Origin: Burkholderia pseudomultivorans
Lineage (GTDB): Bacteria; Pseudomonadota; Gammaproteobacteria; Burkholderiales; Burkholderiaceae
Assembly: GCF_001718415.1 (NCBI RefSeq)
Contig: NZ_CP013378.1
Coordinates: 868,001 to 932,000, forward strand
Direction of reading: 5' to 3'
DNA length: 64,000 nt
Position 1 is the stretch's first letter. Every line of letters begins with the position of its first letter. Under the pieces are notes generated by a model that was not told the origin of the DNA, ran no database searches, and was given only the letters and a program-made list of their open reading frames with translations. Position numbers and translations under genes: made by a program. Below, piece by piece: positions 35,068 through 62,318 of the stretch.

Positions 35068-35083
35068 TTCCCGTACATTGAAA
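35068..35083 (+). promoter_or_regulatory. TTCCGTAC-family site upstream of the monooxygenase operon
   Basis: TTCCCGTACATTGAAA, 85 bp upstream of the monooxygenase ATG. It matches the recurrent motif TTCCGTACNNNGGAA with mismatches in both arms; its CCCGTAC-TTGAAA form is nearly identical to the site at 45511. Confidence 0.45.
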
Positions 35084-35175
35084 TCGCCCGGACGTTCCGT
35101 TCGTGCCTGCCGGATCGGGAGCGGCGCGCCATCCGGCCGGCCGTATCGGGATATCGCATCGCACGATCGTGCGAA

Positions 35176-35190
35176 ATTCCAAAGTACGGC
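35176..35190 (-). promoter_or_regulatory. TTCCGTAC-family site upstream of the SnoaL-like gene
   Basis: On the minus strand GCCGTACTTTGGAAT, 80 bp before the ATG at 35270. It matches CCGTAC-NNN-GGAA of the recurrent motif. The two sites of this divergent promoter lie at nearly equal distances from their genes. Confidence 0.5.
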
Positions 35191-35269
35191 AGACGCGCGC
35201 CGCGCGAATTGACGCGATACCGGCCGGCTCTTCATCGTGGAGGCAGGAAAATGAAAGGAGTGCCGCGCC

Positions 35270-35842
35270 ATGTCTGCCGCCCTGCAACGCCTGATCGACA
35301 AGGACCTGATCCGCGACGTGATGCTTCGCTACGCTCGCGGCGTCGACCGTCGCGACTGGGAACTCGTCCGTTCCGCGTTCTTCGAGGACTGCCATGACGA
35401 CCACGCGGACTTCAAGGGCACACGCGACGCCTTCATCGCATGGGTCAGGGAGCGGCACGACGCCCCGAGCCTGCTGACCTCCACGCACTTCCTCGGCAAC
35501 TGTCTCGTCGAATTCGCGTCCGATGGCGTCGCCGCCGTCGAAACGTATTTCGTCGCGCGGCTGGAACTCGCGCCGCAGGCCAGCGAACATCGGTCGATGC
35601 TCGACGCGAAACATGCCGACAGCACCCACAACAGCCGCGTCGAAGTATTCGGACGCTATGTCGACCGCTTCGAGAAACGCAACGACGAGTGGCGGGTCGC
35701 GCGTCGCCGAACCGTGTTCGACGCCATACAGTCGCACCTCGTCGACGCAGCCGACAACACGCTCAACCCGGCGTGGACGCTCGGCCGGCGTGACCGGCAC
35801 GACCCGGTGTTCGCGCTGCGGGCGGAAGTCGGCTTGAGCTGA
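35270..35842 (+). CDS. SnoaL-like (NTF2-fold) protein
   Basis: 190-residue cytoplasmic protein of the SnoaL_4/NTF2 fold: LIDKDLIRDVMLRYARGVDRRDWELVRSAFFEDCHDDH near the N-terminus is the typical helix with the D...RRDW motif, followed by a beta-rich body (HFLGNCLVEFASDGVAAVETYFVARLE; VFGRYVDRFEKRNDEWRVARRR). Such proteins act as isomerases, dehydratases or hydrolases in ring degradation. It opens a plus-strand group with an esterase and two IclR regulators, and is divergent from the monooxygenase. GGAGGCAGGAAAATGAAAGGAG precedes the ATG within 20-30 bp. Confidence 0.85.
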   Translation: MSAALQRLIDKDLIRDVMLRYARGVDRRDWELVRSAFFEDCHDDHADFKGTRDAFIAWVRERHDAPSLLTSTHFLGNCLVEFASDGVAAVETYFVARLELAPQASEHRSMLDAKHADSTHNSRVEVFGRYVDRFEKRNDEWRVARRRTVFDAIQSHLVDAADNTLNPAWTLGRRDRHDPVFALRAEVGLS

Positions 35843-36008
35843 CGCACGGCGCTCGCCCTCGGCGACGCGACCAATGCCGACGAAATCGATCCAGTCGGCT
35901 GATGGAACCACGGAGACATCACATGAACCGCTGCTCGACGCCGTCGAACGCGCGCCCGGCTTTTCACGGCTTCGTTGCGCTGCATCGCGCCCCCGAGGAG
36001 TCGATATC

Positions 36009-36947
36009 GTGAGCCTCGACAATGAAACCCGCGCCTTCATCGGCAAGCTCGCCGCGACAGCATCGAAGCCGCGTCACCTGATGACGCCGGACGAGGCGCG
36101 CGCCGCGTTCGCACGAATCGGCACGATCCTGTCGGCGGGAGCCGACGTACGCGCCACCATTTCGCTCGATATCCCGGTGGACGGCGGCTCGCTCCGCGCA
36201 CGCCTGTTCATGCCGGACGAAGGTCCGCAAGCGCTGCTCGTCTATTTTCACGGCGGCGGCTGGGTGGTCGGCGGCATCGACGAATTCACGCCGCTGTGCC
36301 GGGAAATCGCCGCCGGTGCGGGTGTCGCGGTTGCGCTCGTCGAGTACCGGAAGGCGCCGGAACATCCATTTCCGGGCCCGGTATTCGACGCCTGGCAGGC
36401 CGCGCGGTGGCTCGTCGCGCAACAAGCTGCCCTGTTCGGCACGACACTGCCGGTGATCGTCGGCGGGGACAGCGCGGGCGCGAACCTCGCGATCGCGGTC
36501 ACGCTGCTCGCCCGGCAGGAGGAAACGGTATCGTTCGCCGGCCAGTTGCTCGTTTACCCGGTGACCGATTGCCGGTTCGATCGGCCTTCGTACCTCGCCG
36601 CCGACAATCAGCTTCTGACCAGTCGCGACGCGATGATGTGGTACTGGACCCACTATGCGCCAACCGACGCGGACCGGCACTCAAGCCTCGCCTCGCCGCT
36701 GAGGGAGGCCGACCTCTCGCGTCTGCCGGAGGCGATCGTCGTCACCGCCGAGCACGACGTGCTGCGCGACGAAGGCGAAGCCTACGCGCAGCGCCTCGTG
36801 CAAGCCGGCGTGCCGGTTCATCATCTGCGCGCAGCCGGACAGATGCACGGCTTTCTCATGATGATTGGCGTTCTGCCCGGAAGCCGCGCCGGCCTGAGCT
36901 TCATATGCGAGCACCTCCGCATCCTCGCTGCGCGTGCGTCGCACTGA
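36009..36947 (+). CDS. Alpha/beta hydrolase, HSL (bHSL/esterase) family
   Basis: 312-residue esterase. The GTG start at 36009 is preceded by GAGGAGTCGATATC; a frame from 35874 has no site. HGGG oxyanion motif at 81-84, nucleophile GDSAG with Ser155, then Asp in AEHDVLRDEG and His in GQMHGF. This is the hormone-sensitive-lipase family, which includes monoterpene lactone hydrolases. It could open the lactone made by the Baeyer-Villiger enzyme divergently encoded nearby. A second member is at 39816. Confidence 0.88.
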   Translation: MSLDNETRAFIGKLAATASKPRHLMTPDEARAAFARIGTILSAGADVRATISLDIPVDGGSLRARLFMPDEGPQALLVYFHGGGWVVGGIDEFTPLCREIAAGAGVAVALVEYRKAPEHPFPGPVFDAWQAARWLVAQQAALFGTTLPVIVGGDSAGANLAIAVTLLARQEETVSFAGQLLVYPVTDCRFDRPSYLAADNQLLTSRDAMMWYWTHYAPTDADRHSSLASPLREADLSRLPEAIVVTAEHDVLRDEGEAYAQRLVQAGVPVHHLRAAGQMHGFLMMIGVLPGSRAGLSFICEHLRILAARASH

Positions 36948-37091
36948 CCTGCCGACCGCGCTCCGCGCAACCGAATGGCGGGCATGCCGCCGCGCCATGA
37001 CGGGCGCGATGGTAGTACGATTCGACATGATGCGCATAGGCGGGCCGGACAAGCACAGGTTCCGCCATCGAAGAATCAGACGGAGACACGG

Positions 37092-37961
37092 ATGCACCCC
37101 GGTAGATCCTTGCCGACACACGTCGACGCGAGGTCCGGCAATGGCCCGCACGGCGTCGACACCGCGTGGCCCAAACTGCCTCGCGGCGAACGCGCACCGA
37201 GCAGCGCGATGGTGACGCCGCTCGCACGCGGGCTGTCGATCCTGTCGGCGTTCGGCCCGGACAAGGGCTGGCTGAGCAATCTGGAGATCGCACAGGCAAC
37301 CGGCATTCCGCCGCCGACTGCGCTGCGCCTGCTCCGGTCGCTGGTCGCACTCGGCTACCTGCACCACGACAAGGCCAGCCGGAAATATGCGCTCGCGGCC
37401 GCGTCGCTCGCGCTCGGCTACGCGGCCGTCGCCGATCCCGACCTTCAGCGGCTCGCCAGCATCGAAATGCGGAAACTGGCCGAGGCGACCGATAGCTACG
37501 TACTGCTCGGCACGCGCGACCGCCTCGACATCCTGATCCTCGATACCCAGATCGGCAGCCGCACCGTGCTGGATCTGCGGCTGCGGCCCGGCATGCGCAT
37601 GCATATCGCGTATTCGCTGATGGGATGGGCATTGCTGGCCGCCCTGCCCGAAGCGGAATGCCGCTACCTGCAATGCGAGCTCGAGCGGCGTGCCGACGAC
37701 AACTGGCCCACCATCGGGCGCCGCATGTTCGAGAAAGTCGCGCAGGTGCGCGAACTGGGGTTCGGCATGTTGCATGGCGACTGGGAACCGGAGCTGGCGT
37801 GTGTCGCCGCGCCCGTCCCGCTTCCCGACCGGCCGCCACTCGTGCTCGGCTGCGTCGGCCGCACGGCCCGCCTCGCGCAGGCGAGGCTCGAACGGGAACT
37901 CGGCCCGCGCCTCGTCGCGATTGCGCAGACGCTTCGCGAGCGTGTGCCGCCCTGCGTCTGA
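37092..37961 (+). CDS. IclR-family transcriptional regulator
   Basis: 289 residues from the ATG at 37092, preceded by CGGAGACACGG. An N-terminal winged helix-turn-helix (SMVTPLARGLSILSAFGPDKGWLSNLEIAQATGIPPPTALRLLRSLV) is followed by the C-terminal effector-binding domain (IEMRKLAEATDSYVLLGTRDRLDILILD...). The first 45 residues are a polar extension. It is followed 15 bp later by a second IclR gene. Candidate regulator of the TTCCGTAC motif found across the region. Confidence 0.9.
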   Translation: MHPGRSLPTHVDARSGNGPHGVDTAWPKLPRGERAPSSAMVTPLARGLSILSAFGPDKGWLSNLEIAQATGIPPPTALRLLRSLVALGYLHHDKASRKYALAAASLALGYAAVADPDLQRLASIEMRKLAEATDSYVLLGTRDRLDILILDTQIGSRTVLDLRLRPGMRMHIAYSLMGWALLAALPEAECRYLQCELERRADDNWPTIGRRMFEKVAQVRELGFGMLHGDWEPELACVAAPVPLPDRPPLVLGCVGRTARLAQARLERELGPRLVAIAQTLRERVPPCV

Positions 37962-37976
37962 ACACGGAAGAACACC

Positions 37977-38789
37977 ATGACGAGGCAGCTCGATCGTCCG
38001 GGAGTCGCAATGCCCCAGGCACCCCATGTCACACAGACGCTCGATCGCGGCCTGCAGGTTTTGCGCGCATTTCACGCCGAGCGCACGCCGCTGACCAACG
38101 GAGAACTGGCGCAGCGCACGGGCATGTCGCGCTCGGCCGTTTCGCGTTTGACCTCTACCCTGATCCATCTCGGCTACATCCGCCGCGTGGCGGGCGGCAC
38201 GCAGTTCGAACTCGCTACAGGCGTGTTCGGCATCGGGTACGCCTACCTCGAAACCAACCCTGTCACGCGACTCGCCCATTCGCCGATGCAGCAGCTTGCC
38301 GACCGGTTGAACGTGTCCGTCGCGCTTGCCGCGCCCGATGGGCTCGACATGCTGTATATCGCGCATCGGACCAGCGCAGGCATCGCCACGCTGCGCCTCG
38401 GCGTCGGTTCACTGCTGCCGATGGGCTGGACGGCGATCGGGCGCGCGTGGCTCTGGACGCTGCCGGAACCGGAGCGACGCCAATACGTCGCGCGGTTGCT
38501 GGAAGCCGCCGGCCCCCAGCGCGAAGCGATGCGCATCGGCATCGACAACGCGTTCGACGATCTGGGCTCGAACGGCGTATGCATGTCGTTCGGCGAATTC
38601 CAGCGTCATGCATACGGCATCGCGTTACCGATCAGCGTCGGCCGCTCCGCCACACCGATGTCGCTCAGCTGTGGTGCGATCCGGCCCGATCCGGACCTCG
38701 ACGCCATCAGGCAACACATCGTGCCGGCACTCAAACAGGCGGCGCGTGATCTCGAGATGCTGCTTCGCGAGGTTCGCTACGAGCCGTGA
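37977..38789 (+). CDS. IclR-family transcriptional regulator
   Basis: 270 residues; helix-turn-helix HVTQTLDRGLQVLRAFHAERTPLTNGELAQRTGMSRSAVSRLTSTLIHLGYI at the N-terminus and an IclR effector domain with LNVSVALAAPDGLDMLYIAHRTSAG. Clearly a paralogue of the preceding regulator but only moderately similar, so it may sense another compound or form part of a pair. Ends before a strong hairpin. Confidence 0.9.
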   Translation: MTRQLDRPGVAMPQAPHVTQTLDRGLQVLRAFHAERTPLTNGELAQRTGMSRSAVSRLTSTLIHLGYIRRVAGGTQFELATGVFGIGYAYLETNPVTRLAHSPMQQLADRLNVSVALAAPDGLDMLYIAHRTSAGIATLRLGVGSLLPMGWTAIGRAWLWTLPEPERRQYVARLLEAAGPQREAMRIGIDNAFDDLGSNGVCMSFGEFQRHAYGIALPISVGRSATPMSLSCGAIRPDPDLDAIRQHIVPALKQAARDLEMLLREVRYEP

Positions 38790-38885: not shown

Positions 38886-39791
38886 TCAACGCGCTCGCCC
38901 GCGCACGCAGGTGCCGCCTTGCTCCGCGACAAACGTCAGGATCGAGGTGAAATCGTCGGCACCGCGTCCCGCATCGTATGCCGCATGCCAGACATCGCGC
39001 GCGCGGTCGATCGTCGGCGTCGCGATATGCAGCAGACGCGCTTCGTCGAAGCCGAGCGACATGTCCTTTTCGATGATCGCCAGCGCCGCGCCATAGTCGA
39101 ATCGACCCGACACGGCGCGGCTCAGCATCTTCGAACCTGCAAAACTCTGCGCCGTACCGGCGTCGAGCAGCCGCATCATCATGTCCGGGTCGAGACCGGC
39201 CTTCGCGCCCATTGCCAGCCCTTCCGAGCAGACGACGAGATTGGTCGCCATGATGATGTTGTTCACGATCTTCATGATCTGAGCCATGCCGGCGCGCTCG
39301 CCCATCACGAACACGTCCTTGCCGATCAGCGACAGCAGCGGCATGACCTGCTCGACGAGCGCCGGCGCGCCGGCCGCCAGCATCGCGAGCGTACCCGCCC
39401 GCGCGGCGGGCGCACCGCCCGAGATCGGCGCATCGACGATGCCGATGCCTTTCTCCGCCAGCCCGTCGCCGATACGCACGATCATGTCCTGACCGATCGT
39501 CGACATCTCCGCGTACAGGCGGATCGCCGTCCCGTGCACGACGCCGTCCGGGCCCAGGCCGACGGCCAGCGACACGTCGCGATTCGGCAGACACGCCAAT
39601 ACGATGCCGGCCGCATCGGCGACCGAGCGCGGCGAATCGTGGATGACCGCGCCGCCGTCGACAAAGGGCTTCAGGGCCGCGGGCGACGGGTCGTACACAT
39701 GCAGGCGGAACGATTGCCCCAGCAAGCGCTCGGCCATCGGGCCGCCCATCTGCCCCAGACCGAGAAAGCCGATATGTTTCACTGTATCCAT
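38886..39791 (-). CDS. 3-hydroxyisobutyrate dehydrogenase-like oxidoreductase
   Basis: 301-residue beta-hydroxyacid dehydrogenase. NAD-binding HIGFLGLGQMGGPMAERLL (6-24), substrate motif DAPISGGAPAARAGTL near 120, and the catalytic Lys in GMAQIMKIVNNIIMATN near 175. It would oxidise a 3-hydroxy acid or a related hydroxyacid formed by ring or lactone opening. It follows the HSL-family hydrolase gene by 24 bp in one operon. Confidence 0.9.
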   Translation of the reverse strand: MDTVKHIGFLGLGQMGGPMAERLLGQSFRLHVYDPSPAALKPFVDGGAVIHDSPRSVADAAGIVLACLPNRDVSLAVGLGPDGVVHGTAIRLYAEMSTIGQDMIVRIGDGLAEKGIGIVDAPISGGAPAARAGTLAMLAAGAPALVEQVMPLLSLIGKDVFVMGERAGMAQIMKIVNNIIMATNLVVCSEGLAMGAKAGLDPDMMMRLLDAGTAQSFAGSKMLSRAVSGRFDYGAALAIIEKDMSLGFDEARLLHIATPTIDRARDVWHAAYDAGRGADDFTSILTFVAEQGGTCVRGRAR

Positions 39792-39815: not shown

Positions 39816-40760
39816 TCAGGCAGTCACGCCGCGACGCGCGATCGCACCGCCGATCCAGGCCGCCGCCTCCGTCAGCGCTTCCTTTGCCGCCGCGCACGCG
39901 AGCCCCATGCGAAAGAAGCCGTGGATCATGCCTTCGTAGTGCCTCAACGTGACGGGCACGCCCGCGTCGAACAGGCGATTCGCATAGGCATCCCCCTCAT
40001 CGCGCAAGGGATCGAAGCCGGCCGTCACGACGAGCGCGCGCGGCAATCCCGCCAGCGACCTTGCGCGAAGCGGGCAGGCATGCGGATGAAACGCATCCCG
40101 CTCGTTCGCGACGTAGTCGTGCCAGAACCGAATCATCGCCGCGCGCGTGAGCGCATAACCGGACTGGTTCTCGATGTACGAGCGGGTCGGCGGCGTGTGG
40201 TAGTCGGTCACCGGGTAGATCAGTACCTGCGCACACAGCAACGGGCCGCCTTCGTCGCGGATCCTCAGCGCGGTCACCGCTGCGAGGTTGCCGCCCGCGC
40301 TGTCGCCCGCCACGACGATGCGCGACGCATCGAGCGACAGTGTTTCCGCCTGTTGCGCGATCCAGCCCACGGCGTCGAAGCAGTCGTCGACCGCGGCAGG
40401 GAAGCGGTGCTCGGGCGCAAGCCGATAGTCGAGCGCAATCACGGCCGCCCCGCTTCCCTCGCATAGATCTCTGCACACGTGATCGTGCGTGTCGAGATTG
40501 CCGATCACGAAGCCGCCGCCGTGAAAGAACACGATCACGCCGTCGCTTTGCCTGGCCTCCGGCCGCGGCCGGTACAAGCGAGCCGGCAACGAGCGCCCTG
40601 CCAGCGGTATTTCGAGGTCGACGACCTCGCCGACCATCGTGCGTCGATCGAGCGGCGGATAGGCCAGGCCTGCGCGCAGCGCGTCGACGGACAGACTCTC
40701 CATCGGCGGCGTCGATTCGAGGCTGCGCAGAATCGCGGCGATTTCAGGGTCGAGCGCCAT
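39816..40760 (-). CDS. Alpha/beta hydrolase, HSL (esterase) family
   Basis: 314 residues from the ATG at 40760 (GGAGTAGCGT before it). HGGG at 80-83, GDSAGG with Ser154, Asp in AGFDPLRDEG, and the His in EGMIHGF. It is a paralogue of the esterase at 36009, with the same family motifs. Gene order suggests it hydrolyses an ester or lactone to the hydroxyacid used by the dehydrogenase encoded downstream. Divergent from the carboxymuconolactone-decarboxylase-like gene across 478 bp. Confidence 0.9.
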   Translation of the reverse strand: MALDPEIAAILRSLESTPPMESLSVDALRAGLAYPPLDRRTMVGEVVDLEIPLAGRSLPARLYRPRPEARQSDGVIVFFHGGGFVIGNLDTHDHVCRDLCEGSGAAVIALDYRLAPEHRFPAAVDDCFDAVGWIAQQAETLSLDASRIVVAGDSAGGNLAAVTALRIRDEGGPLLCAQVLIYPVTDYHTPPTRSYIENQSGYALTRAAMIRFWHDYVANERDAFHPHACPLRARSLAGLPRALVVTAGFDPLRDEGDAYANRLFDAGVPVTLRHYEGMIHGFFRMGLACAAAKEALTEAAAWIGGAIARRGVTA

Positions 40761-41014
40761 ACGCGCTACTCCGTGATGCACTGCGCGGGTTCACGGCCCG
40801 GCGTGGCGGGAGACTCGAGACGTGCGTCGAAAGCGAGTCGTCGATTCGTTGACACGTTATTGAAAAGAGGCATCGTTCATCTCCCTGTTGGCAGTTTTCC
40901 TGCACTGGACTGACGCGGGCAATCCGAACACGCTGGTCGCTGCGAGCGCGGCCGCGCCATTCATGCAAAGCGTGCCGACGTGCCGGGTCGTGGTCAATGT
41001 CGGCACACGGTGCT

Positions 41015-41029
41015 TTCCGTACAACGGAA
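41015..41029 (+). promoter_or_regulatory. Perfect TTCCGT-N3-ACGGAA palindrome
   Basis: TTCCGTACAACGGAA, a perfect 6+3+6 palindrome, 209 bp upstream of the ATG at 41239 and 255 bp from the divergent hydrolase. Confidence 0.6.
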
Positions 41030-41129: not shown

Positions 41130-41144
41130 TTCCACTGTACGGAA
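41130..41144 (-). promoter_or_regulatory. TTCCGTAC site upstream of the CMD-like gene
   Basis: The minus strand reads TTCCGTACAGTGGAA, 94 bp upstream of the ATG at 41239. It matches TTCCGTACNNNGGAA at every fixed position. Confidence 0.6.
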
Positions 41145-41238: not shown

Positions 41239-41979
41239 ATGGACGATTCAAACGTTCTGAAGACACGATTCGAACATCTGCACGGCTTCTGGAACAACGG
41301 GCTCGAATCTGCGCTGCAGGAAGACCCTGCCTTCTTCGCCAGCTATCTGTCGATGGCCGAAGTCGCGATGGGCGCGACGCACCTCGAACCGAAGATACGC
41401 GACTTCGTCCTGATCGCCGCCAATGCAAGCGTGACGCACCTGAATTCCGAGGCCGTCAGCCACCACGTCGAAGCCGCCGTGAAACACGGCGCAACCCGCG
41501 GTGAACTGCGCGAGGTGCTTCAGGTCGCCTCCGTTCTCGGCATTCATGCGTATATGGTCGGGGTGCCAATCCTGCTCGAAGCGCTTGCCGCCACCGGCGA
41601 ATCGCTCGATGCGGTGTTCCCGCTCGACGACGCCTTCGAGAAAGTGCGCGCGCAGTTCACCGAGCGCCGCGGTTACTGGAGCGACGAGTTGCAAGGCATG
41701 GTTCGCAGTTCTCCCGCGTTCTTCGACGGGTATACGGCGTTTTCGTCGGCACCGTGGAAGACCGGCGAGCTGGCGCCGGTCGTCAAGGAATTGTTGTACG
41801 TGGCAATCGACGTATCGACGACACACCTCTTCGAGCCGGGCGTCCGCATTCATACGCGCAACGCGCTTCGCTACGGTGCGACACCGGCGCAAGTGCTGCA
41901 GGTCATGCAGATCGTCAGTTGTGTCGGGATGCAGAGCTTTCTGCTCGGCGTACCCCGTTTGAGATCCGCTGGGGCCTGA
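41239..41979 (+). CDS. Carboxymuconolactone decarboxylase-like protein (two domains)
   Basis: 246 residues from the ATG at 41239 (GGAAAGGA upstream). Two tandem AhpD/CMD-like helical domains: PKIRDFVLIAANASVTHLNSEAVSHHVEAAVKHGATRGELREVLQVASVLGIHAYM (about 50-110) and the repeat ELAPVVKELLYVAIDVSTTHLFEPGVRIHTRNALRYGATPAQVLQVMQI (about 175-230). The CxxC of peroxidase-type AhpD proteins is missing, so a decarboxylase or binding role is more likely than peroxidase activity. Two TTCCGTAC sites lie upstream. Confidence 0.85.
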   Translation: MDDSNVLKTRFEHLHGFWNNGLESALQEDPAFFASYLSMAEVAMGATHLEPKIRDFVLIAANASVTHLNSEAVSHHVEAAVKHGATRGELREVLQVASVLGIHAYMVGVPILLEALAATGESLDAVFPLDDAFEKVRAQFTERRGYWSDELQGMVRSSPAFFDGYTAFSSAPWKTGELAPVVKELLYVAIDVSTTHLFEPGVRIHTRNALRYGATPAQVLQVMQIVSCVGMQSFLLGVPRLRSAGA

Positions 41980-42149: not shown

Positions 42150-43055
42150 TCAAAGGTGCTTGCCGAAGAACGGCGCCAGCTTCGACACCGCTTCGCGCAT
42201 CTGCTCGGGCGTATCGTAAAGCGACATGTGCGTGGCGCCCGGGATCACGTGCAGGTGCTTGTCGGTGCTGGCCGCCTTGTCGAAGATGTCCCGGCTGAAC
42301 CACAGCGAGCCGGCGTCGCTGCCGGCGATCAGTTGCAGCGGTTGCGTCAGCAGCACGTCGGCCGACGCGAATGCGTCGTAGGTCACCAGTTGCGGCAGGC
42401 TGCTGGTCGTGAACTGGCTCGGCGTGTTGGGATGCTGCGCGCGCGACGTACGGTAGTAGTCGTACGCTTCGCGCATGTCGCGATCCTCGACGCCGTCGAG
42501 GCTCGTCGGCGAGAACGGCAGATACGCGACCGGCTCGCCGTCGGCCTCGCGCGTGCGCTGCGCGGCGCCCAGTTCGAGCAGCCCGATCGCCTTCGCCGCC
42601 GGCTCGTCGCCGCGCCAGCCGACGCGGAACATGCTGCCGATATTGACGGTGCTGATACCGCCAACCGCCTTGATGCGCCGGTCGGTCATCGTCGCGTGGA
42701 TCGCATAGCCGCCGCCTGCGCAGACACCCAGCGCGCCGATCCTGTCGCGATCGACGCAATCGCGCGTCACCAGATAGTCGACCGCACTGCGCACGTCGTT
42801 GACGCGCGCATAAGGATCCTCGAGAAACCGCGGCGTGCCGCCGCTTTCCCCCTGGAACGACGCGTCGAACGCGAGCGTGACGAAGCCTTCGCGCGCCAGC
42901 TGCTCCGCATAGCGACCGGCCGTTTGCTCCTTGACGCCGCCGCCCGGATGCACGCATACGATGGCCGGATACTTGCGGGCCGCGTCGAAGCCTTCGGGAA
43001 AATAGAGGTTCGCGGCCATTTCAAGCGCGCCGTTCGGAAATTTGACTGATTGCAT
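42150..43055 (-). CDS. Dienelactone hydrolase-like alpha/beta hydrolase
   Basis: 301 residues from the ATG at 43055 (CTGGAGAACTC upstream). Alpha/beta hydrolase with YPAIVCVHPGGGVKEQTAG near residue 27, the nucleophile region GALGVCAGGGYAIH (Cys in the nucleophile elbow, as in dienelactone hydrolases) and a C-terminal His in GATHMSLYD. Paralogue of the gene at 46589 (shared TLAFDAS, RYLEDP-like and LLTQPLQ blocks). Substrate unknown; a lactone or ester from the local pathway is likely. Confidence 0.85.
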   Translation of the reverse strand: MQSVKFPNGALEMAANLYFPEGFDAARKYPAIVCVHPGGGVKEQTAGRYAEQLAREGFVTLAFDASFQGESGGTPRFLEDPYARVNDVRSAVDYLVTRDCVDRDRIGALGVCAGGGYAIHATMTDRRIKAVGGISTVNIGSMFRVGWRGDEPAAKAIGLLELGAAQRTREADGEPVAYLPFSPTSLDGVEDRDMREAYDYYRTSRAQHPNTPSQFTTSSLPQLVTYDAFASADVLLTQPLQLIAGSDAGSLWFSRDIFDKAASTDKHLHVIPGATHMSLYDTPEQMREAVSKLAPFFGKHL

Positions 43056-43347
43056 GAGTTCTCCAGTTGATGTTTCACCGGGGCGATTCGACGTTTGCAT
43101 CCCGGACCTGGTCGAATATAGTCGTCGATGTCGCCAGCAACTAGACTGCATGAAGTTCATGCGCCAATAAGCCAGGCTTATCAATCAAGACCTGCGTTTC
43201 CAACCGGAAAGCCTTGCCGGGACGGCAGCCGATGAATGGACCGCGCGGATCGGCGCGCGTTGTCATGGACGATCGCGCCGGTTCCCCGGCGCGACCGACC
43301 GGCAGCGTGACGATGGCCGCCGCAGGCCGCTTCGATGCGGTGATCGG

Positions 43348-43926
43348 TCAGCCTTTGCTCGGCTGATGAAACATCGGCCAGTGCTGCCGGACGAGTTCGC
43401 GCGACGCACCGTATGCGTAGCAGCTGTCGATCTTGAGCGGTTTCCCGCTGGCGTCGGTTGCTTCGAGCAAACCTCGGGCACGCAGCGGATTGACGGCCTG
43501 GATGGCCGCGGTTGCGAGCGGGATCAGGATTTCGCGCAGATGCGCGCAGGTTTCGCCGGGCGGCAGTCGCTTGCGTACCTCGCCGCCCCAGCCCGCCCCG
43601 ATCCGCAACCCCACCAGCGCCTGCAGCGACGCGCCGCCGCCCGGGCATTCGCGGTACGGATAGGCGCGGATGAAGGTGCTGACCGCGTGGATGACCATAT
43701 CGAGATCGAATACCACGCACAGCCCGATGTCGTGAATCGGATCGTTCGCCGGCACCACGCGCACGCCGCTGGGCGGCGCGAAATCGTGCGGTTTGCGGTC
43801 CGTCAGATGACCTTCGATTTCAAAGAGTCCGTCGCTTCGCCTGAATCCCTCGAACGCGATCCGCCTCGTATGCAGCGGCTCGCGCGTCACCGCGTCGGTT
43901 GCCGCGCCGTTGTCGTGAACGCTCAT
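43348..43926 (-). CDS. DUF2889 domain protein
   Basis: 192 residues with the DUF2889 pattern LHTRRIAFEGFRRSDGLFEIEGHLTDRKPHDF at the N-terminus and CPGGGASLQALVGLRIGAGW in the middle. Function is unknown in the literature I recall; it often sits in catabolic loci with CoA-linked or MmgE/PrpD genes. Its ATG overlaps the stop of the MmgE/PrpD gene by 4 bp, so the two are probably functionally linked. Confidence 0.8.
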   Translation of the reverse strand: MSVHDNGAATDAVTREPLHTRRIAFEGFRRSDGLFEIEGHLTDRKPHDFAPPSGVRVVPANDPIHDIGLCVVFDLDMVIHAVSTFIRAYPYRECPGGGASLQALVGLRIGAGWGGEVRKRLPPGETCAHLREILIPLATAAIQAVNPLRARGLLEATDASGKPLKIDSCYAYGASRELVRQHWPMFHQPSKG

Positions 43927-45368
43927 TGCGCCCTCCCGGCAGCCTCGATCTCGCGCGCGACATTCGCCAGTGCATGCGCGAGCGTCCGGCCGTCGCTGCG
44001 AGCGTCCTGAATGAGCGTGGCGAACTGCCTGACCGCCGACGTCCGCACGCCATGCGCCGCGAGACCGTCGCCCTTCGCGATGATCTGCTCGAGCGTCAAC
44101 GGTCTGGCCGGCGTCCCGACGCTGTCGATCACGACGCTGGCACGCGCGGTGCCGTCGTCGCGCACGATCCGCGCGCCGGTCGCGAAGCGGGTCGGGTAAT
44201 ACTGCGTCAGCGCGTCGCTCGGTTCGAAGCGCACGCGCTGCGCGATGCGCCGGATCTGCGGATCGGCGAGAAACGCGTCGTCATACGCGTCATAGCGGTA
44301 CGGCCCGTAGCTCAGCGTCGCGCCGACGATATACGGACAGCTGTATTGCGCGGCCATCGTCGATTCGGGTTGCGCGAGCATATGCTGGTCCGCGATCAGC
44401 GGTGGGCCGCTGATCACGATCTCGCGGATGTCGTTGGTTCGCATCGCAAAGTTGTCGGTCAACTCAGCCAGCGCGTCGATCGTCGAGTGGAACAAGCGAC
44501 AACAGGCGTACGGCTTGAGGCTGATCGCATGGATCTGCAGCGCGTCATGCCGTTCGACTGCGCGCAGCGGACCGCCGAACAGCGCGGCGAGCCCGTAGGC
44601 GCCTTCGACGACGCACCGCGGCGCCGTCACCGCGTCCATCTGCGCAAATTCGGCGGCGATCACGCCGTTGCGTGCCGCGATGCCCGCATGAACGCGCTTG
44701 ACCTCGCCGCCAGCCGCCTCCGCCGAGAACTGCATCGAGCCGCTTGCCTGCGACAGCGCATGGCCCCAGGCGCGAATCAGCGCTTCCGGCGTGACCGGCG
44801 CGTCGTGACGATACGCATGAAGCGCCACGCAGGCGGTGGCCGCGCCGAAGGTGCCGAAAATCGCCGTCGGATGAAACCCGCGATGCACGGTTTCCATCCC
44901 GCCCGCCGCCGCGCCGACCAACGCCATCGCCTCGTAGCCGGCGGCCACCGCGCGAAACAGCGCGGCCTGCGACGCGCCGGTGTCCGCCGCGACGGCCAGC
45001 GCCGCCGGTATCACGGCCGCGCCGGGATGGCTCAGCGTCTCGTTATGCGTGTCGTCGAGCTCGTAGCTGTGCGAGGCCGTGCCGTGCACCAGCGCGGCAA
45101 CGGACGCATCGGCCGTCCAGTCGCCGCCGAGGACCGGGCTCGCGCCCGTGCCGGCAAAACGCCGCGACCAGCCCGCGATCTGGGTCGTCCACGGCCGTGT
45201 CGCGCCCCACAGCGAGACGATGAAGTTGTCGAGGAAAAGCCGGCACAGTGCTGCGGTATCGGCATCGGTCGCGCACCGGTTCGCCACGGACGCGACATGC
45301 GCGACGATGGCCGCGGTGACATCCGTCGGTGCAGACGCCGATTCTCCAGCGCCGTTGGGGGATTGCAT
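43923..45368 (-). CDS. MmgE/PrpD family protein
   Basis: 481 residues from the ATG at 45368 (ACAGGAGACGAAGC upstream). Family motifs: LFLDNFIVSLWGATRPWTTQIAG near 45, HGTASHSYELDDTHNETLSHPGAAVIPAALA near 100, and LKPYACCRLFHSTIDALAELT near 315. Members include 2-methylcitrate dehydratase and cis-aconitate decarboxylase; many others are of unknown reaction. A dehydratase or isomerase of a hydroxy acid is plausible. A TTCCGTAC-type site lies 143 bp upstream. Confidence 0.88.
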   Translation of the reverse strand: MQSPNGAGESASAPTDVTAAIVAHVASVANRCATDADTAALCRLFLDNFIVSLWGATRPWTTQIAGWSRRFAGTGASPVLGGDWTADASVAALVHGTASHSYELDDTHNETLSHPGAAVIPAALAVAADTGASQAALFRAVAAGYEAMALVGAAAGGMETVHRGFHPTAIFGTFGAATACVALHAYRHDAPVTPEALIRAWGHALSQASGSMQFSAEAAGGEVKRVHAGIAARNGVIAAEFAQMDAVTAPRCVVEGAYGLAALFGGPLRAVERHDALQIHAISLKPYACCRLFHSTIDALAELTDNFAMRTNDIREIVISGPPLIADQHMLAQPESTMAAQYSCPYIVGATLSYGPYRYDAYDDAFLADPQIRRIAQRVRFEPSDALTQYYPTRFATGARIVRDDGTARASVVIDSVGTPARPLTLEQIIAKGDGLAAHGVRTSAVRQFATLIQDARSDGRTLAHALANVAREIEAAGRAQ

Positions 45369-45510
45369 GCTTCGTCTCCTGTCGTGACGCGGCCGCCGGG
45401 CGGCGCGCGCTGCCGCATCGCGCGTGCGGCCGCGATACGCGGGCACGCGGTGCACGTACCGTCACGATGCGCGGGCATCGGTGCACCCGTCAATTTGCAC
45501 GGGGCATCCC

Positions 45511-45525
45511 TCCCGTACTTTGAAA
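45511..45525 (+). promoter_or_regulatory. TTCCGTAC-family site upstream of MmgE/PrpD
   Basis: TCCCGTACTTTGAAA, 143 bp before the MmgE/PrpD ATG; nearly identical to the site at 35068 (CCCGTACATTGAAA). Confidence 0.45.
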
Positions 45526-52675: not shown

Positions 52676-52694
52676 GGAATGCTCCGGTCGGATA

Positions 52695-53906: not shown

Positions 53907-53917
53907 GGCTGCGCTCC

Positions 53918-57096: not shown

Positions 57097-57117
57097 TCCG
57101 ATTGTCTCCATGTGATG

Positions 57118-57166: not shown

Positions 57167-57236
57167 ATAATTGAAACCCCGCTTCGGCGGGATCGAACCG
57201 GCCGGATGCACGCGCCGATCGACTTACGTGGCTGCG

Positions 57237-58529
57237 TCAGGCGGACAGGCCGGCCTCGCGCGCGAGCCGTTCGCGATGATCGGGATGCGCGATCGCAATC
57301 ATCTTCGGCACGCGCTGCGCGAGCGACAGGCCGCGCAGATCGGCGATCCCGTATTCGGTGACGATCACGCACGCGTCGCTGCGCGGCACCGTCACCGGGC
57401 CCGACAGTGTCGTCACGATGCGACTGTGCGCGCCTGCGGTAGACGGCAGCGCCACGATCGGCACGCCGCCGCGGCTGGCTTGCGCGGCCCGCAGAAAATC
57501 GCCGACGCCGCCGACCGCGCCGACATACGTGCCGCCGACGACTTCCGCGTTGACCTGCCCCGTCAGATCGACCTCCACCGCGGAATTGATCGCGGTGAAG
57601 CGTTCGATCCGGCGCAGCACGTGCGGGTTGTGCGTGTATTCGGTGCCGCGCAGTTCGAGCGCCGGATTGCGATGGGCGAAGCGGCGCACGCGCGCGGAGC
57701 CGATGATGACGCCGCCGACGGTGATGCCCGCGTCGATCGTCTTGCGCGCATTCGTCACGACGCCGGCTTCGCAGAGCGCCGCGATGCCGTCGCCGACGCT
57801 GCCGGTGTGCACGCCGAGGTCGCGCCTGTCGTGTAGCGCGGCCATCACAGCGTCCGGGATCGCGCCGATGCCCGTCTGCAGCGTCGCGCCGTCTTCGACC
57901 AGCGACGCGACGTGCTGCCCGATCGCCTGCTCCACGGGCCCGGGCTCGGTTGCGACCGCGTCCGGAAACGGCGTGTCCGACGTCACGAGCAAATCGATGT
58001 CGGCAGCGCGCAGGAACGGGCCGCCGTAGGTCCACGGCACATCGGGATGCACTTCGGCGACGATCGCCCGCGCATGCTTGAGCGCTTCCACCAGATATTC
58101 GCGCGCAAGCCCGAGGCTGTACCGGCCGTGCTCGTCCGGCGGCGAGACCTGCAGCATCACGACGTCGATCCGCAACGCGCCGCTGCGGACCAGTTCAGGC
58201 AGTTGCGAATAGTGCGCGGGCAGGATGTCGAGCACGTTCGCGCGCGCCAGCTTGCGGTTGGCGCCGCTGCCGCAGTAGGCGAGGAAATCGATGGCGTCGG
58301 CATGCTCGGGCGTCAGGACATCGGCGAGGCCGATGCCGAGAAAGACGCGAATGCGCTTGAAGCTGTGGCGCTGCGCGACCAGCGCGCGCATCAGCGTCAC
58401 GGGCTCGGCGTGCGACTGGCCCCACATCACGGTGTCGCCGGGACGAATCAGCGAGGAAAGCGCATCGCAGTCGCCGGCCTGACGGGCATCGGCCGATGCG
58501 TGCGCGGGCGCGCATGCGGGATGGTTCAT
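57237..58529 (-). CDS. Acetyl-CoA hydrolase/transferase-family CoA-transferase (4-hydroxybutyrate CoA-transferase-like)
   Basis: 430 residues from the ATG at 58529 (MNHPACAPAHASADARQAGDCDALSSLIRPGDTVMWGQSHAEP). The catalytic Glu lies in the block ELRGTEYTHNPHVLRRI near 300, and the CoA-binding GGVGDFLRAAQASRGGVPIVALPSTAG near 350 is present. Class I CoA-transferases of this type act on short- and medium-chain acids, such as 4-hydroxybutyrate. No strong Shine-Dalgarno sequence precedes the start, and upstream starts in this frame are possible. It is followed 140 bp later by the racemase gene, with its own probable promoter. Confidence 0.88.
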   Translation of the reverse strand: MNHPACAPAHASADARQAGDCDALSSLIRPGDTVMWGQSHAEPVTLMRALVAQRHSFKRIRVFLGIGLADVLTPEHADAIDFLAYCGSGANRKLARANVLDILPAHYSQLPELVRSGALRIDVVMLQVSPPDEHGRYSLGLAREYLVEALKHARAIVAEVHPDVPWTYGGPFLRAADIDLLVTSDTPFPDAVATEPGPVEQAIGQHVASLVEDGATLQTGIGAIPDAVMAALHDRRDLGVHTGSVGDGIAALCEAGVVTNARKTIDAGITVGGVIIGSARVRRFAHRNPALELRGTEYTHNPHVLRRIERFTAINSAVEVDLTGQVNAEVVGGTYVGAVGGVGDFLRAAQASRGGVPIVALPSTAGAHSRIVTTLSGPVTVPRSDACVIVTEYGIADLRGLSLAQRVPKMIAIAHPDHRERLAREAGLSA

Positions 58530-58739
58530 GGATGGGCGAGATCGAAGATCAGGTCGAGCGCTCCGGCGTCGTATGCGCCATCCGGAATCGTCAACATGAC
58601 GGGTTGAAGTTCGCGCGCGTCGCGATCGCGTCCCGAAGGGCGCCTGTCCGAAGCGACGAAGCTCGACGGACGATGCGACAGGCATCGCCGCCCATCGTGA
58701 TTCGCTCAACGGGGAGCGTCAATGTGCACGCGCGGCGTG

Positions 58740-58754
58740 TTCCGTACGTCGGAA
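58740..58754 (+). promoter_or_regulatory. TTCCGTAC-N3-GGAA site
   Basis: TTCCGTACGTCGGAA, 211 bp upstream of the CoA-transferase ATG. All fixed positions of the motif match. Confidence 0.6.
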
Positions 58755-58827
58755 CGCGCGCATCGCGCGTTTTGGTCCGGTACGCGGTGCACGTCATGCG
58801 CGGTGCGCTCGGCGTGGCGCATCCGGC

Positions 58828-58842
58828 TTCCGAAGTACGGAA
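58828..58842 (-). promoter_or_regulatory. TTCCGTAC-N3-GGAA site
   Basis: The minus strand reads TTCCGTACTTCGGAA; 299 bp upstream of the CoA-transferase and 155 bp upstream of the gene at 58997. Second perfect match in this region, 74 bp from the first. Confidence 0.6.
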
Positions 58843-58996
58843 TCGTCGCCTGCACGCTATTGACGCTGCGCCCGTCGAACCGACACTGTTGACGCTACCG
58901 CGTGGCGTGTCGCCGTCGAGGGCGCTGCCCTGTTCGACCGAGACGGCGCGGTGCCGGAACACACGGGCCGACCTGGCTCATTGCAGGACTCAGACC

Positions 58997-59311
58997 ATGC
59001 AGAAGCAACGAATCGAGGATCACGGATCGAGCATGACGGTCGCGCGTGCGCGCGCGAGAGAAAACGCCAACGCGGAAGATGCCGCGCTGTGGCGATGGTT
59101 CGCCGCCTTGCTCGACGAGCGGCGGATCCGCTGGTGTCACAGCGGCCGCGGATGGCTCGTGAGCGTCGACCATCGTCACGTCGCCACCGGCACGCAGTTC
59201 GATCAGGCGATGCGCATCGCCAAGGAAAACGTCGAGAGCAGCGGCACCCGCCGCCTCGATGCGACGTCGAAGTCCGACCGATCGCGAAGAAAGATTCATC
59301 TCGTGAAGTAA
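58997..59311 (+). CDS. Small hypothetical protein (104 aa)
   Basis: MQKQRIEDHGSSMTVARARARENANAEDAALWRWF at the N-terminus, then LLDERRIRWCHSGRGWLVSVDHRHVATGTQFDQAMRIAKENVES and a basic tail (KSDRSRRKIHLVK). Typical codon bias and a complete small domain with an RGWLVSVDHRHVATG strand pattern suggest a real cytoplasmic protein. Family unknown. CAGGACTCAGACC before the ATG is a weak site. Lies between the TTCCGTAC sites and the porin. Confidence 0.6.
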   Translation: MQKQRIEDHGSSMTVARARARENANAEDAALWRWFAALLDERRIRWCHSGRGWLVSVDHRHVATGTQFDQAMRIAKENVESSGTRRLDATSKSDRSRRKIHLVK

Positions 59312-59471
59312 TGACGCTTCGATCCTGCCGGCGCATCGTCGCGCCATGAATCGGCACGCCCTCCCACACCTGTACGCGATCGATCGCGACCGTCATCGCG
59401 ATCGAACCCTCGCCCTGCGGCTTTACCCTTAAGGGTCTCCACGCTGTTCGCGACGCATCGCGCAGCACCTC

Positions 59472-59486
59472 TTTCACTGCACGGAA
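59472..59486 (-). promoter_or_regulatory. Degenerate TTCCGTAC site upstream of the porin
   Basis: The minus strand reads TTCCGTGCAGTGAAA, which differs from the site at 41130 (TTCCGTACAGTGGAA) at two of 15 positions. It lies 171 bp before the porin ATG. Confidence 0.4.
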
Positions 59487-59585
59487 TCGGATTGCCCGAT
59501 CGATTGACGGTGATATCGGCCACGCATCTAATCGACCGAACGTTGCGGCAAGCGGGTGTTCGTTGTTCAGTCAATTAGTTTTCCG

Positions 59586-59601
59586 GATCAATTGATTGAT
59601 C
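59586..59601. promoter_or_regulatory. Inverted repeat GATCAAT-TG-ATTGATC upstream of the porin
   Basis: Perfect 7-bp arms with a 2-nt centre, about 55 bp upstream of the porin start, near where an operator or -10 region would be. Confidence 0.35.
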
Positions 59602-59656
59602 GCACCGGCCGCGACGTCACGATACGACCATTCAGAAGAAACTTTGGAGACAGTCA

Positions 59657-60838
59657 ATGAAAAGGACGATTGCGCTTTGCGCAGCGGTGGGTTGCGTCGG
59701 CGGTACGGCACATGCGCAGAGCAGCGTACAGTTGTACGGGATTATCGACGAAGGGGTCAACTACGTGAGCAACGCGTCCGGCCATCATCTGTACAGCCTC
59801 GCGAGCGGCGTGCTCAACGGCAGCCGCTGGGGGCTGCGCGTGAAGGAGGACCTCGGCGGCGGCTACGGCGCGCTCGCGGTGCTGGAGAACGGCTTCGATC
59901 TCAATACCGGCAAGCTCGGCCAGGGCGGTCTCGAATTCGGGCGGCAAGCGTATGTCGGCCTGTCCGGCCCGTACGGCACCGTCACGCTCGGCCGTCAGTA
60001 CGATTCCGTCGTCGATTCGGTCGGCCTGCTCGAAGCGGGCGATCAGTGGGGCGGTTATCTCGCCGCCCACCCGTCCGACAACGATAACTTCAACAACACC
60101 AATCGCGTCAACAACGCGATCAAGTACACCAGCCCGGTTTTCCATGGCCTGACGGCGACCGCACTGTACTCGCTGGGCGGCGTGTCGGGGCATACGGGCC
60201 GCAACCAGATCTGGTCGGCCGGCGCCAGCTACACGAACGGCCCGCTGTCGATGGGCGCGGGCTACCTCAACGTGCGCAACCCGAACACGTCGTTCTATGG
60301 CGCGGGCGGCACCGTCGCCGCAACCGTGAACGGCGTGCCCGGCTCGAACTTCGGCGCGTCGCCGGTGATTTCCGGTTACGCGTCTGCGCACACGCTGCAG
60401 GTGATCGGCACGGGCGCGGCCTACACGATCGGCTCACTGACGCTCGGCGCGACCTATTCGAACACGCAGTTCCGCCATCTCGGCGATACCACGTCGGGCC
60501 CCGTGCCCGCCGGCGGCATCAGCGGCACCGCAAAGTTCAACAATGCCGAGCTGAACGTGAAATACCAGATCACGCCGGCCCTCGTGGTTGGCGCGAACTA
60601 TGTGTATACGAAGAACAGCGGCGCCGATGCGACCGGCGGCGCACACTACAACCAGGCGTCGTTCGGCGCCGACTACTTCCTGTCGAAACGCACCGACGTG
60701 TACCTCGTCGGCACCTATCAGCGCGCGAGCGGAACCGATTCGACCGGTCACAGCGCGGTCGCGTCCATCAACCAGCTGACGCCGTCGACGTCGAACCATC
60801 AGGTCGCGCTGCGCGTCGCGATGCGGCACAAGTTCTGA
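59657..60838 (+). CDS. Gram-negative porin
   Basis: 393 residues; signal peptide MKRTIALCAAVGCVGGTAHAQ, then SSVQLYGIIDEGVNYVSN, the start of most Burkholderia general porins, and GSRWGLRVKEDLGGGYGALAVLENGFDLNTGKLGQGG. It ends ...QVALRVAMRHKF, with the C-terminal Phe required for outer-membrane assembly. A trimeric 16-stranded porin. Placed among catabolic genes and with a specialised promoter, it may admit the substrate of the pathway. Confidence 0.95.
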   Translation: MKRTIALCAAVGCVGGTAHAQSSVQLYGIIDEGVNYVSNASGHHLYSLASGVLNGSRWGLRVKEDLGGGYGALAVLENGFDLNTGKLGQGGLEFGRQAYVGLSGPYGTVTLGRQYDSVVDSVGLLEAGDQWGGYLAAHPSDNDNFNNTNRVNNAIKYTSPVFHGLTATALYSLGGVSGHTGRNQIWSAGASYTNGPLSMGAGYLNVRNPNTSFYGAGGTVAATVNGVPGSNFGASPVISGYASAHTLQVIGTGAAYTIGSLTLGATYSNTQFRHLGDTTSGPVPAGGISGTAKFNNAELNVKYQITPALVVGANYVYTKNSGADATGGAHYNQASFGADYFLSKRTDVYLVGTYQRASGTDSTGHSAVASINQLTPSTSNHQVALRVAMRHKF

Positions 60839-60874
60839 TGCGCCGCGACGACTTCGGTCGTCGTATCGAAGCGG

Positions 60875-60932
60875 CGCGCCGCCCGCATCCGCCGGAAACC
60901 TCGCGGTGGATGCGGGCGGCGCGTCTTTTTTT
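60875..60932 (+). terminator. Strong Rho-independent terminator after the porin
   Basis: CGCGCCGCCCGCATCC (60875-60890) pairs with GGATGCGGGCGGCGCG (60908-60923), a perfect 16-bp stem, followed by TCTTTTTTT (60924-60932). Confidence 0.92.
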
Positions 60933-60981
60933 CGTTTACCGCAACGACGCGCGCGACCGGTCGTCGCAGCCGGCCCGCCCG

Positions 60982-61944
60982 CTACAGATCCAGCACCAGC
61001 CGCGCCGATTTCGAGCGCGAGCAGCACGGCATGAACTGGTCGTTCGCCACGCGCTCCTCGGCTGTGAGGCAATGGTCGAAATGCTCGGGCTCGCCCGCGA
61101 GCACGCGCGTCGCGCAGGTTCCGCACAGGCCCTGCTCGCACGAGGTCTCGATCTCGATGCCGGCTTTCGCGAGCGCCCGCACGACCGATTCGTGCTTCTC
61201 GACGACGATCACGCGGCCCGAACTCGCGATCTGCACTTCGAACCGGCCGTCCTGTTCCGTCTGCCGCGCCTCGGCCGCAAAAAACTCGTAATGCAGTTGC
61301 GCTTCCGGCCATCCGTTCGCACGCGCGGTTGTCAGCACGGCGTCCATGAAGCCCTTCGGTCCGCAAACGTACAGATGCGTGCCGGGTTCGGGAACGGCGA
61401 GTCGCGCCGCGATATCGAAGCGCTGCTCGGCGGCTTCGTCGTCGAAATGAAACTGCACGCGGCCCGCATAGGGCGCGCGCGCGATGTGATCGAGAAACGC
61501 CGTGCGCGTGCGCGATCGCGTGCAGTAATGCATGTCGAACGACGCGTCGATGCGCGCGAGCCGTTCCGCCATGCAGAGGATCGGCGTCACGCCGATGCCG
61601 CCTGCGAGCAGCAGGCTGTGCTTCGCGTCATGCGCGAGCGGGAAATGGTTCTTCGGCGCGCTGATCGTCAGCGTGTCGCCGATATTCACGCGATCGTGCA
61701 TGCCGGCCGACCCGCCGCGCGAGTTCGGATCGCGCAGCACGGCAATCCGGTATCGGTGGTTTTCGTCGGGTGCATTGCACAGCGAGTACTGGCGCGTCGG
61801 GCCGCCCGGCACGGCCACGTCGATATGCGCGCCGGCCGAGAACGGCGGCAGCGGCCGGCCGTCCGCGCGAACGAGCTCGAAACTGCAGATGTCGGCGGCT
61901 TCGTCGTGCCTCGCCGCGACGCGGACCGTCAGTCCGTCGATCAT
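60982..61944 (-). CDS. PDR/VanB-family oxidoreductase (ferredoxin reductase)
   Basis: 320 residues. Flavin-binding RQYSLCNAP (51-59), NAD-binding GGIGVTP (115-121) and CGPKGFM (194-200), and a C-terminal plant-type [2Fe-2S] domain with Cys269, Cys274, Cys277 and Cys307 (CEQGLCGTC). This is the reductase of class IA Rieske oxygenases or VanB-type demethylases. No oxygenase gene is seen next to it in the window; it may lie beyond the right end, or the enzyme may serve a partner elsewhere. A TTCCGTAC-like site lies 77 bp upstream. Confidence 0.93.
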   Translation of the reverse strand: MIDGLTVRVAARHDEAADICSFELVRADGRPLPPFSAGAHIDVAVPGGPTRQYSLCNAPDENHRYRIAVLRDPNSRGGSAGMHDRVNIGDTLTISAPKNHFPLAHDAKHSLLLAGGIGVTPILCMAERLARIDASFDMHYCTRSRTRTAFLDHIARAPYAGRVQFHFDDEAAEQRFDIAARLAVPEPGTHLYVCGPKGFMDAVLTTARANGWPEAQLHYEFFAAEARQTEQDGRFEVQIASSGRVIVVEKHESVVRALAKAGIEIETSCEQGLCGTCATRVLAGEPEHFDHCLTAEERVANDQFMPCCSRSKSARLVLDL

Positions 61945-62318
61945 GTTCGTCCCCTCCTCCCTTCGATGGGGGCGATTACAGGGGCGAGGCGGACGTGTGT
62001 CAATTCGGCGCGTTTCGACGTTCCGTACTTCGGGGAATCGAACGGCTCGCGACCAGCGACGCGTCCGGGGTCATACGCACTCACGCGTGTGCCGGTTCGA
62101 GCGCCCGCGGTTACGTCTCGCGCAGACAACGCGATTCCGTACGATCGCGCAAGAAATGCGAACGCTGCAGCATGGTCCGTGCGACGGCGGCTGCTTAAGA
62201 TCGGCACGCGACGCCTTCCGCCGGCGCTGCGCTGGCCGCTTGCCGTTTGCGGCTCGCTGCACGGAACGAACGATCGCGACGCGCCGACAGAATCGACCCA
62301 ACAAGGCAAGGAGACATC
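61945..62318. other. Divergent region between the reductase and the SDR gene
   Basis: 374 bp containing the site at 62021 and a partial copy TTCCGTACGATCGCG at 62135-62149. Other frames here are not supported. Confidence 0.4.
62021..62035 (+). promoter_or_regulatory. TTCCGTAC-type site upstream of the reductase gene
   Basis: TTCCGTACTTCGGGG, 77 bp upstream of the reductase ATG. It matches the motif except for the last two positions; GGGGAA follows, so the right arm is shifted by two bases. Confidence 0.5.

Follow-up and report, generated by a model that had tools for sequence, protein, structure and literature searches.

The 64,000-nucleotide stretch of Burkholderia pseudomultivorans DNA analysed here (the window; positions 868001-932000 of a contig designated C2, in a home genome of 7,956,789 bases on three contigs) raises the question of what controls its scattered catabolic operons. 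An earlier note on this DNA had claimed that nine copies of a 15-bp motif join them into one putative regulon, perhaps under two tandem IclR-family regulator genes that lie among them (IclR-A and IclR-B, hereafter A and B). The reading preferred here, with a probability of about 0.7, is that A and B jointly bind the motif, probably as a heterodimer on its unlike half-sites, and activate a single catabolic regulon. All nine sites are present in the sequence, two of them one base away from the positions first given (35069 and 35177 instead of 35068 and 35176). The copies described as perfect, at 41015, 41130 (minus strand), 58740 and 58828 (minus strand), are indeed so, and those described as good or partial carry one mismatch (35177, minus strand) or two (35069, plus strand; 45511; 59472, minus strand; 62021). 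Loose counting was dropped as a test, as the 32 matches with up to three mismatches in the window are no excess over shuffled DNA (27.35 +/- 5.15), and the claim therefore rests on the strong sites.

The motif is an asymmetric 15-mer, TTCCGTACTTYGRAA, and the consensus of 111 non-redundant operators (92 in relatives alone) is (T/C)G-TTCCGTACTTYGRAA; any site with a truncated 39-base context would have dropped out of this set. The operator matrix was built from 19 sites of the home genome, which are included in the home counts but not in those for relatives alone, and the relatives are 40 loci of Burkholderia, Paraburkholderia, Caballeronia, Cupriavidus, Variovorax, Achromobacter, Bordetella and others, chosen for holding a relative of A. 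Applied to these loci, the matrix found 142 sites scoring 16 bits or more, whereas its reversed form found two; such sites occur in 35 of the 40 loci and are absent from the other five. Of the sites reaching at least 17 bits, 130 of 131 in the relatives alone are intergenic, compared with 26.8% of all positions there, and the count becomes 152 of 153 when three home regions are added. Genes were called simply by codon usage and some were missed, which makes the intergenic share of about 26% an overestimate. Two home regions (C2 1472-1524 kb and 2925-2945 kb) were excluded from the home part of the counts of gene clusters, A genes, these sites and 8-mers; each holds one match of at least 17 bits, within a gene at 1507759 and intergenic at 2935501, and their inclusion would give 153 of 155. 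In the whole home genome, 28 matches with at most one mismatch were found, compared with eight in the reversed control. All six perfect matches fall into three clusters (C2 903-1013 kb, C2 1362-1381 kb and 46-55 kb of contig C3), together with seven of the 22 one-mismatch matches, the other 15 being scattered. A genome scan and a comparison with related genomes, both proposed in the earlier note, thus speak for its idea of a single regulon, since the motif is almost wholly intergenic, clusters in the home genome and, as described below, is tied to close relatives of A; by the standards of sequence analysis, the regulon is real.

The earlier note related the motif to the short TTCC..GGAA-type palindromes that IclR proteins commonly bind, but it is not such a palindrome: its halves differ. 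Among the 111 sites, C at position 3 is invariant and is mirrored by C or T at position 13, G5 is mirrored by A or G at position 11, and T6 by A10; only five sites are near-symmetric. The ending formerly written N3-GGAA is better given as TTY-GRAA. As the matrix is itself asymmetric, the asymmetry was checked without it, by counting 8-mers: no other 8-mer is as over-represented in intergenic DNA as TTCCGTAC (158 copies, 4.0 expected), which has 11 copies within genes, and its intergenic copies are followed by the right half of the motif even though this half was not selected for. The published operator consensus of IclR group 1 is GKTYCRYW3-4RYGRAMC (Suvorova and Gelfand 2021, PMC8222616), and TTCCGTACTTYGRAA appears to be a derivative of it. 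The spacing, the core and the left half, GTTCCGT, fit this consensus, and the regulators in question are likewise IclR proteins of a catabolic region. Unlike the palindromic group-1 operators described in that survey, the site is directional, with T in place of R at the inner position of the right half (90 of 111 sites) and C at the centre (108 of 111).

The orientation of the motif is fixed relative to a promoter element. In 59 of the 111 operators, TTGAC starts 17 bp (50 sites) or 16 bp (nine sites) past the TTCCGTAC end of the site, and on the other side there is none at those offsets; in the relatives alone, the figures are 48 of 92 and none. With a looser -35 definition (TTG plus at least four of six matches, offsets 16-18), 74 of 111 sites have the element on this side and two on the other. 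T is enriched 22-23 bases beyond the -35 element, where a -10 element would end given a spacer of 17-18 bp, although -10 elements are weak. The centre of the operator, as computed from the hexamers and not from mapped starts, lies near -60/-61, and the TTGAC spacing agrees with class I placement at sigma-70 promoters, i.e. a fixed distance upstream of the -35 element with a centre near -61. For the pattern GTACGGNA-N16/17-TTGNC in the home genome, all 14 matches with TTGAC lie within the three clusters (11 at C2 903-996 kb, one at C2 1381 kb and two on C3), and all 10 matches with TTGCC or TTGTC lie outside them, the reversed control giving 10. An oriented operator phased to its promoter appears to be a new feature. 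The fixed distance and single direction suggest contact with the polymerase and hence activation, so that the geometry points to an activator position. That the operators are instead repressor sites is quite improbable. The IclR family, as its survey notes (PMC8222616), includes repressors, and the weak -10 elements also count against such a role; an operator that lies clear of the core promoter, mostly 16-17 bp from the -35 element and in one orientation, suits polymerase contact rather than blocking.

The candidate regulators are encoded on the plus strand by A (36975..37961) and, directly after it, B (37977..38789), which is 26% identical to A in alignment. Profile hidden Markov model searches with Pfam place the HTH_IclR and IclR_C domains above the gathering cut-off in A and B as well as in A' and B'. 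Among 44 distinct A genes from the 40 loci and the home regions (45 entries, a lone A shared by the overlapping loci L049 and L065 being counted once; A was counted at 300 bits or more), an open B frame adjoins A in 38, of which 35 are in tandem and three, all from Cupriavidus, tail to tail. This usually side-by-side pairing of unlike IclR genes would be a further new feature. The home genome holds three A/B pairs, in the window (36975-38789), at C2 988815-990480 and, in decayed form, on C3. Immediately upstream of the second there is a pair of operators, and the operator at 35177 precedes the group containing the first; this placement makes it likely that the IclR pairs control their own genes. 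The proposed link of the motif to the tandem IclR genes is thus upheld and may be extended to the second pair (C2 988.8-990.5 kb) and to the decayed third one, with the qualification that both proteins together, rather than either gene by itself, appear to be the best candidate. The residue at position 28 of the helix-turn-helix domain in the numbering of PMC8222616 (Arg47 of TtgV) is Ala or Pro in 30 of 32 A proteins and Lys or Arg in 24 of 24 B proteins. The survey text links Lys28 and Arg28 to G/C at the outer operator positions (PMC8222616), and a preference at these positions is present only in the promoter-facing half of the motif. B is provisionally assigned to that half, because of both observations.

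The prevalence of A among the 40 loci is circular, as the loci were picked for A, whereas a survey of 299 family genomes is free of this. Relatives of A at E <1e-45, a cut-off of the analyst's choice, occur in 28 of them, and the list was fixed before the genomes were scanned for the operator followed by TTGAC. This combination was found in 18 of the 28 genomes and in none of the 271 others (hypergeometric 4e-22), with 34 matches in all and one control match. The sequence CCGTACTTYGRAA was found in 24 of the 28 (93 matches; reversed control 16) compared with 54 of the 271 (61 matches).

Several observations weigh against the joint action of A and B. The operator followed by TTGAC is missing in 10 of the 28 genomes with A, and CCGTACTTYGRAA in four of them; 42 of the 271 genomes counted as without A do have an IclR match, though a more distant one (E 1e-35 to 1e-42); and 37 of the 111 operators, window site 41130 among them, have no -35-like element at offsets 16-18. 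In the three Cupriavidus loci in which A and B converge, the operator is scarce or absent (two sites in L071, none in L072, one in L075), and its specificity may have changed there. Moreover, genome co-occurrence cannot separate the members of one co-inherited gene cluster, and no IclR gene is present within the 50 kb examined around the sites at C2 1362-1381 kb. These last points favour another of the cluster's regulators (LysR, AraC, TetR or LuxR) as the binding protein, A and B being passengers; LysR genes do occur inside the window and AraC and LuxR genes nearby, and LysR-like genes, identified by eye, lie near the C2 1381 kb pair of operators. This explanation is nevertheless highly improbable, as A (32) and B (28) are the regulators that recur most among the gene clusters of 43 sources, which were chosen for A, the next being TetR-like (10) and LysR-like (8) by eye; the left half of the motif fits the published consensus of IclR group 1; and, of the three clusters in the home genome, two, including that on C3, carry A and B genes.

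The remaining difficulties concern the requirement for two proteins. The five near-palindromic operators could be bound by a homodimer, five of the 44 A genes have no adjacent B and one more has only an interrupted B remnant, and IclR proteins are described in the survey as dimers or tetramers on palindromes (PMC8222616). A single IclR protein, A or B, might thus act as a homodimer, the asymmetry being a tolerated weak half-site and the other IclR protein having another signal or site. This is unlikely in our view: a symmetric dimer would not need the strict promoter orientation (59 versus 0 of 111), positions 3/13, 5/11 and 6/10 differ strongly in sites collected with the asymmetric matrix, the same right half appears in the unselected 8-mer count, and B adjoins A in 38 of 44 cases.

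Of 42 non-redundant operator pairs within 300 bp, 40 are convergent, and a -35-like element accompanies both sites in 14 of these 40 and one site in 26. Twenty-five convergent pairs lie between divergent genes and 14 do not, with one left undetermined by our own gene calls, so that many convergent pairs, though not all, can be described as back-to-back promoters. At one homologous promoter region, the distance between the operators is 88 bp in the home genome and ten others (11 aligned; found by a pair search allowing 81-95 bp), while the spacer sequence diverges; the flanking genes differ, by eye, in some of the 11 genomes. A DNA loop between two complexes on paired operators, rather than each promoter's own operator, might then be the working unit, as would suit the prevalence of convergence, including at the pairs with non-divergent flanking genes, and the 88-bp spacing kept in all 11 genomes. 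We consider the loop distinctly unlikely, since the pairs with a -35 element at both sites and those between divergent genes mean that many need no loop, and some operators have no partner. Helical phasing of the pairs, suggested by eye from distances near 57, 67, 79, 89 and 100 bp, also counts for little here: at a period of 10.5 bp the signal is weak (Rayleigh test, p about 0.05), its best period, near 11.5 bp, was picked from a scan of 26 periods, and it is weakened further by the many pairs that are divergent promoters; it was not established.

Taken with the joint action of A and B, these data can be described by the following mechanism, in which we infer binding by A and B, activation, heterodimerisation and an inducer. 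The unlike proteins, encoded side by side, would bind the asymmetric TTCCGTACTTYGRAA together, most likely as a heterodimer or heterotetramer, with the TTCCGTA half facing the promoter and typically ending 16-17 bp before the TTGAC of a -35 element. The promoter would be of the sigma-70 type with a weak -10 element, and the operator centre near -60/-61 would put the complex in the class I position, at which activators make contact with RNA polymerase. In the presence of a pathway inducer, it would turn on the genes of the monooxygenase, esterase, CoA-transferase, dehydratase, porin and reductase, as well as its own, on both the chromosome and the small contig C3. Each back-to-back promoter would carry its own operator, which may explain many of the convergent operator pairs. 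Of the possible mechanisms, a heterodimer best fits operators that are oriented and asymmetric and unlike IclR genes that lie side by side, but it is not yet a fact. We lean, by a little, towards the stronger proposal of a new IclR design, an obligate heterodimer of tandem-encoded paralogues in which the unlike half-sites would orient the complex with B, as predicted, towards RNA polymerase; the few symmetric operators would be read by a homodimer of one subunit, much as BldM of Streptomyces reads a class of sites by itself, and the regulon copy on C3, whose own B is interrupted, would rely on the A/B pairs of the chromosome. A directional operator at a nearly fixed distance from a promoter would permit a direct test of heterodimer orientation on RNA polymerase, and the operator followed by 16-17 bp and TTGAC may serve as a specific signature for finding this catabolic regulon in Burkholderiaceae.

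Several known systems resemble this one in part. The best NCBIfam match of both A and B is the family of PcaR/PcaU/PobR-type regulators (TIGR02431), but the scores of 96.7 bits for A and 129.3 bits for B are far below its curated cut-off of 284.75, which places both outside it. MhpR of Escherichia coli is an IclR activator with an operator upstream of the -35 element, centred at about -58; it is a single regulator with a local target. A chain of 526 residues in PDB entry 5W1E has two IclR stretches, so that, as proposed for A and B, two IclR units are present in one molecule, although those of 5W1E form a single fused chain, which matches A at E 1e-13 and B at E 2e-27; no paper naming this entry was found in a literature search. 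A parallel in operator design is the BldM-WhiI heterodimer of Streptomyces, whose non-palindromic operator has one half equal to the homodimer half and, as reported in the text of PMC4125116, was footprinted by both proteins together and by neither alone, with symmetric and asymmetric classes of sites. These are response regulators and not IclR proteins, and the heterodimer is demonstrated there and predicted here. The same article calls heterodimerisation of transcription factors rare in bacteria (PMC4125116). The large survey of IclR motifs treats the sites as palindromes, the word 'heterodimer' is absent from its main text, and the family is stated there to include activators (PMC8222616). 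Among the open-licence PMC papers listed, no paired, double or heterodimeric IclR system was found by title, and the titles listed for the TTCCGTAC 8-mer held nothing on such a system.

In the window, eight of the nine operators have ATTGAY on their TTCCGTAC side, always at one offset, and 41130 is the exception. The operator TCCCGTACATTGAAA (35069..35083, plus strand) faces the leftward promoter of a Baeyer-Villiger-type monooxygenase, with the -35-like element TTGATG at 35046..35051 (minus strand), 17 bp away, as are the -35 elements of all the sites below that have one. The likely target is a flavin monooxygenase (33325..34983, minus strand), the nearest solved relatives of which are phenylacetone and steroid monooxygenases. 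On the other side, TGCCGTACTTTGGAA (35177..35191, minus strand), with TTGACG at 35209..35214 (plus strand), faces the rightward group of a SnoaL_4 protein (35270..35842, plus strand), an Abhydrolase_3 esterase (35874..36947, plus strand), A and B, the first two being likely targets. The operator TTCCGTACAACGGAA (41015..41029, plus strand), one of the five near-palindromes, with TTGACC at 40992..40997 (minus strand), faces leftward genes of a LipP1-type esterase (39816-40760, minus strand) and a 3-hydroxyisobutyrate-dehydrogenase-like protein (38886-39782, minus strand), both likely targets. The likely window regulon includes two Abhydrolase_3 esterases. Its neighbour TTCCGTACAGTGGAA (41130..41144, minus strand), which has no -35 element at the usual offset, faces the gene of a CMD-domain protein (41239..41979, plus strand), again a likely target.

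Further along, TCCCGTACTTTGAAA (45511..45525, plus strand), with TTGACG at 45488..45493 (minus strand), faces leftward genes of an MmgE/PrpD protein, a DUF2889 protein and an alpha/beta hydrolase (42150..45287, minus strand), which are likely targets. The operator TTCCGTACGTCGGAA (58740..58754, plus strand), with TTGACG at 58717..58722 (minus strand), faces leftward CoA-transferase genes, the likely target being a CoA-transferase of the acetyl-CoA hydrolase/transferase type (57237..58529, minus strand; start chosen by eye from the translation). In the opposite direction, TTCCGTACTTCGGAA (58828..58842, minus strand), with TTGACG at 58860..58865 (plus strand), faces a 104-residue reading frame to its right (58997..59311, plus strand), a likely target for which there is no Pfam match up to E 0.1; this frame stands behind a well-conserved operator-promoter unit and, by eye, is kept in several aligned relatives. 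Finally, TTCCGTGCAGTGAAA (59472..59486, minus strand), with TTGACG at 59504..59509 (plus strand), faces a porin of the Porin_4 family (59657..60838, plus strand), and TTCCGTACTTCGGGG (62021..62035, plus strand), with TTGACA at 61998..62003 (minus strand), faces a leftward 2Fe-2S/NAD (ferredoxin-type) reductase (60982..61944, minus strand), both of which are likely targets.

Outside the window, the operator followed by TTGAC precedes an AraC gene and then SnoaL and Rieske oxygenase genes, two alpha/beta hydrolases, the second IclR pair, and a MaoC gene, behind which lie what are, by eye, SDR and thiolase genes; on C3, it precedes an SDR/FMN oxidoreductase pair and a GMC oxidoreductase. The set of likely targets fits a ketone-oxidising, ester-cleaving, CoA-dependent route. 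C3 is a 111-kb contig, and its region at 43001-63000 (locus L038) contains a third A, the match to which holds one stop, and an interrupted B. Transposase-like frames, genes for GMC and FMN oxidoreductases and operators accompanied by -35 elements are present as well, and the contig resembles a copy of the regulon in decay. A plasmid search gave 105 records; in the ten of these that were listed, 11% of the query is matched, by sequence annotated as transposase in nine and unannotated in one.

Some variants of these arrangements were also observed. Upstream of the second IclR pair (C2 990650/990750), a further, weaker operator without a -35-like element lies about 100 bp away, and such a second operator recurs in several species (e.g. 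loci L056, L057, L060, L068 and L069). The five A genes without an adjacent B are those of L049/L065, L051, L067, L078 and L080, and a complete A-B pair is present elsewhere in the same locus for those of L049/L065, L051 and L078. The convergent operators at C2 1380818-1381399 (15818-16399 of locus L035), one of them with TTGAC at the standard offset, front a reading frame of 76 residues (16169-16399 of the same locus, by eye), the nearest A/B pair being about 390 kb off. In the same catabolic region as the window operons, C2 948090-953111 (L029/L030) encodes a LuxR-type regulator and a pair of genes that resemble, by eye, those of hydantoinase/oxoprolinase.

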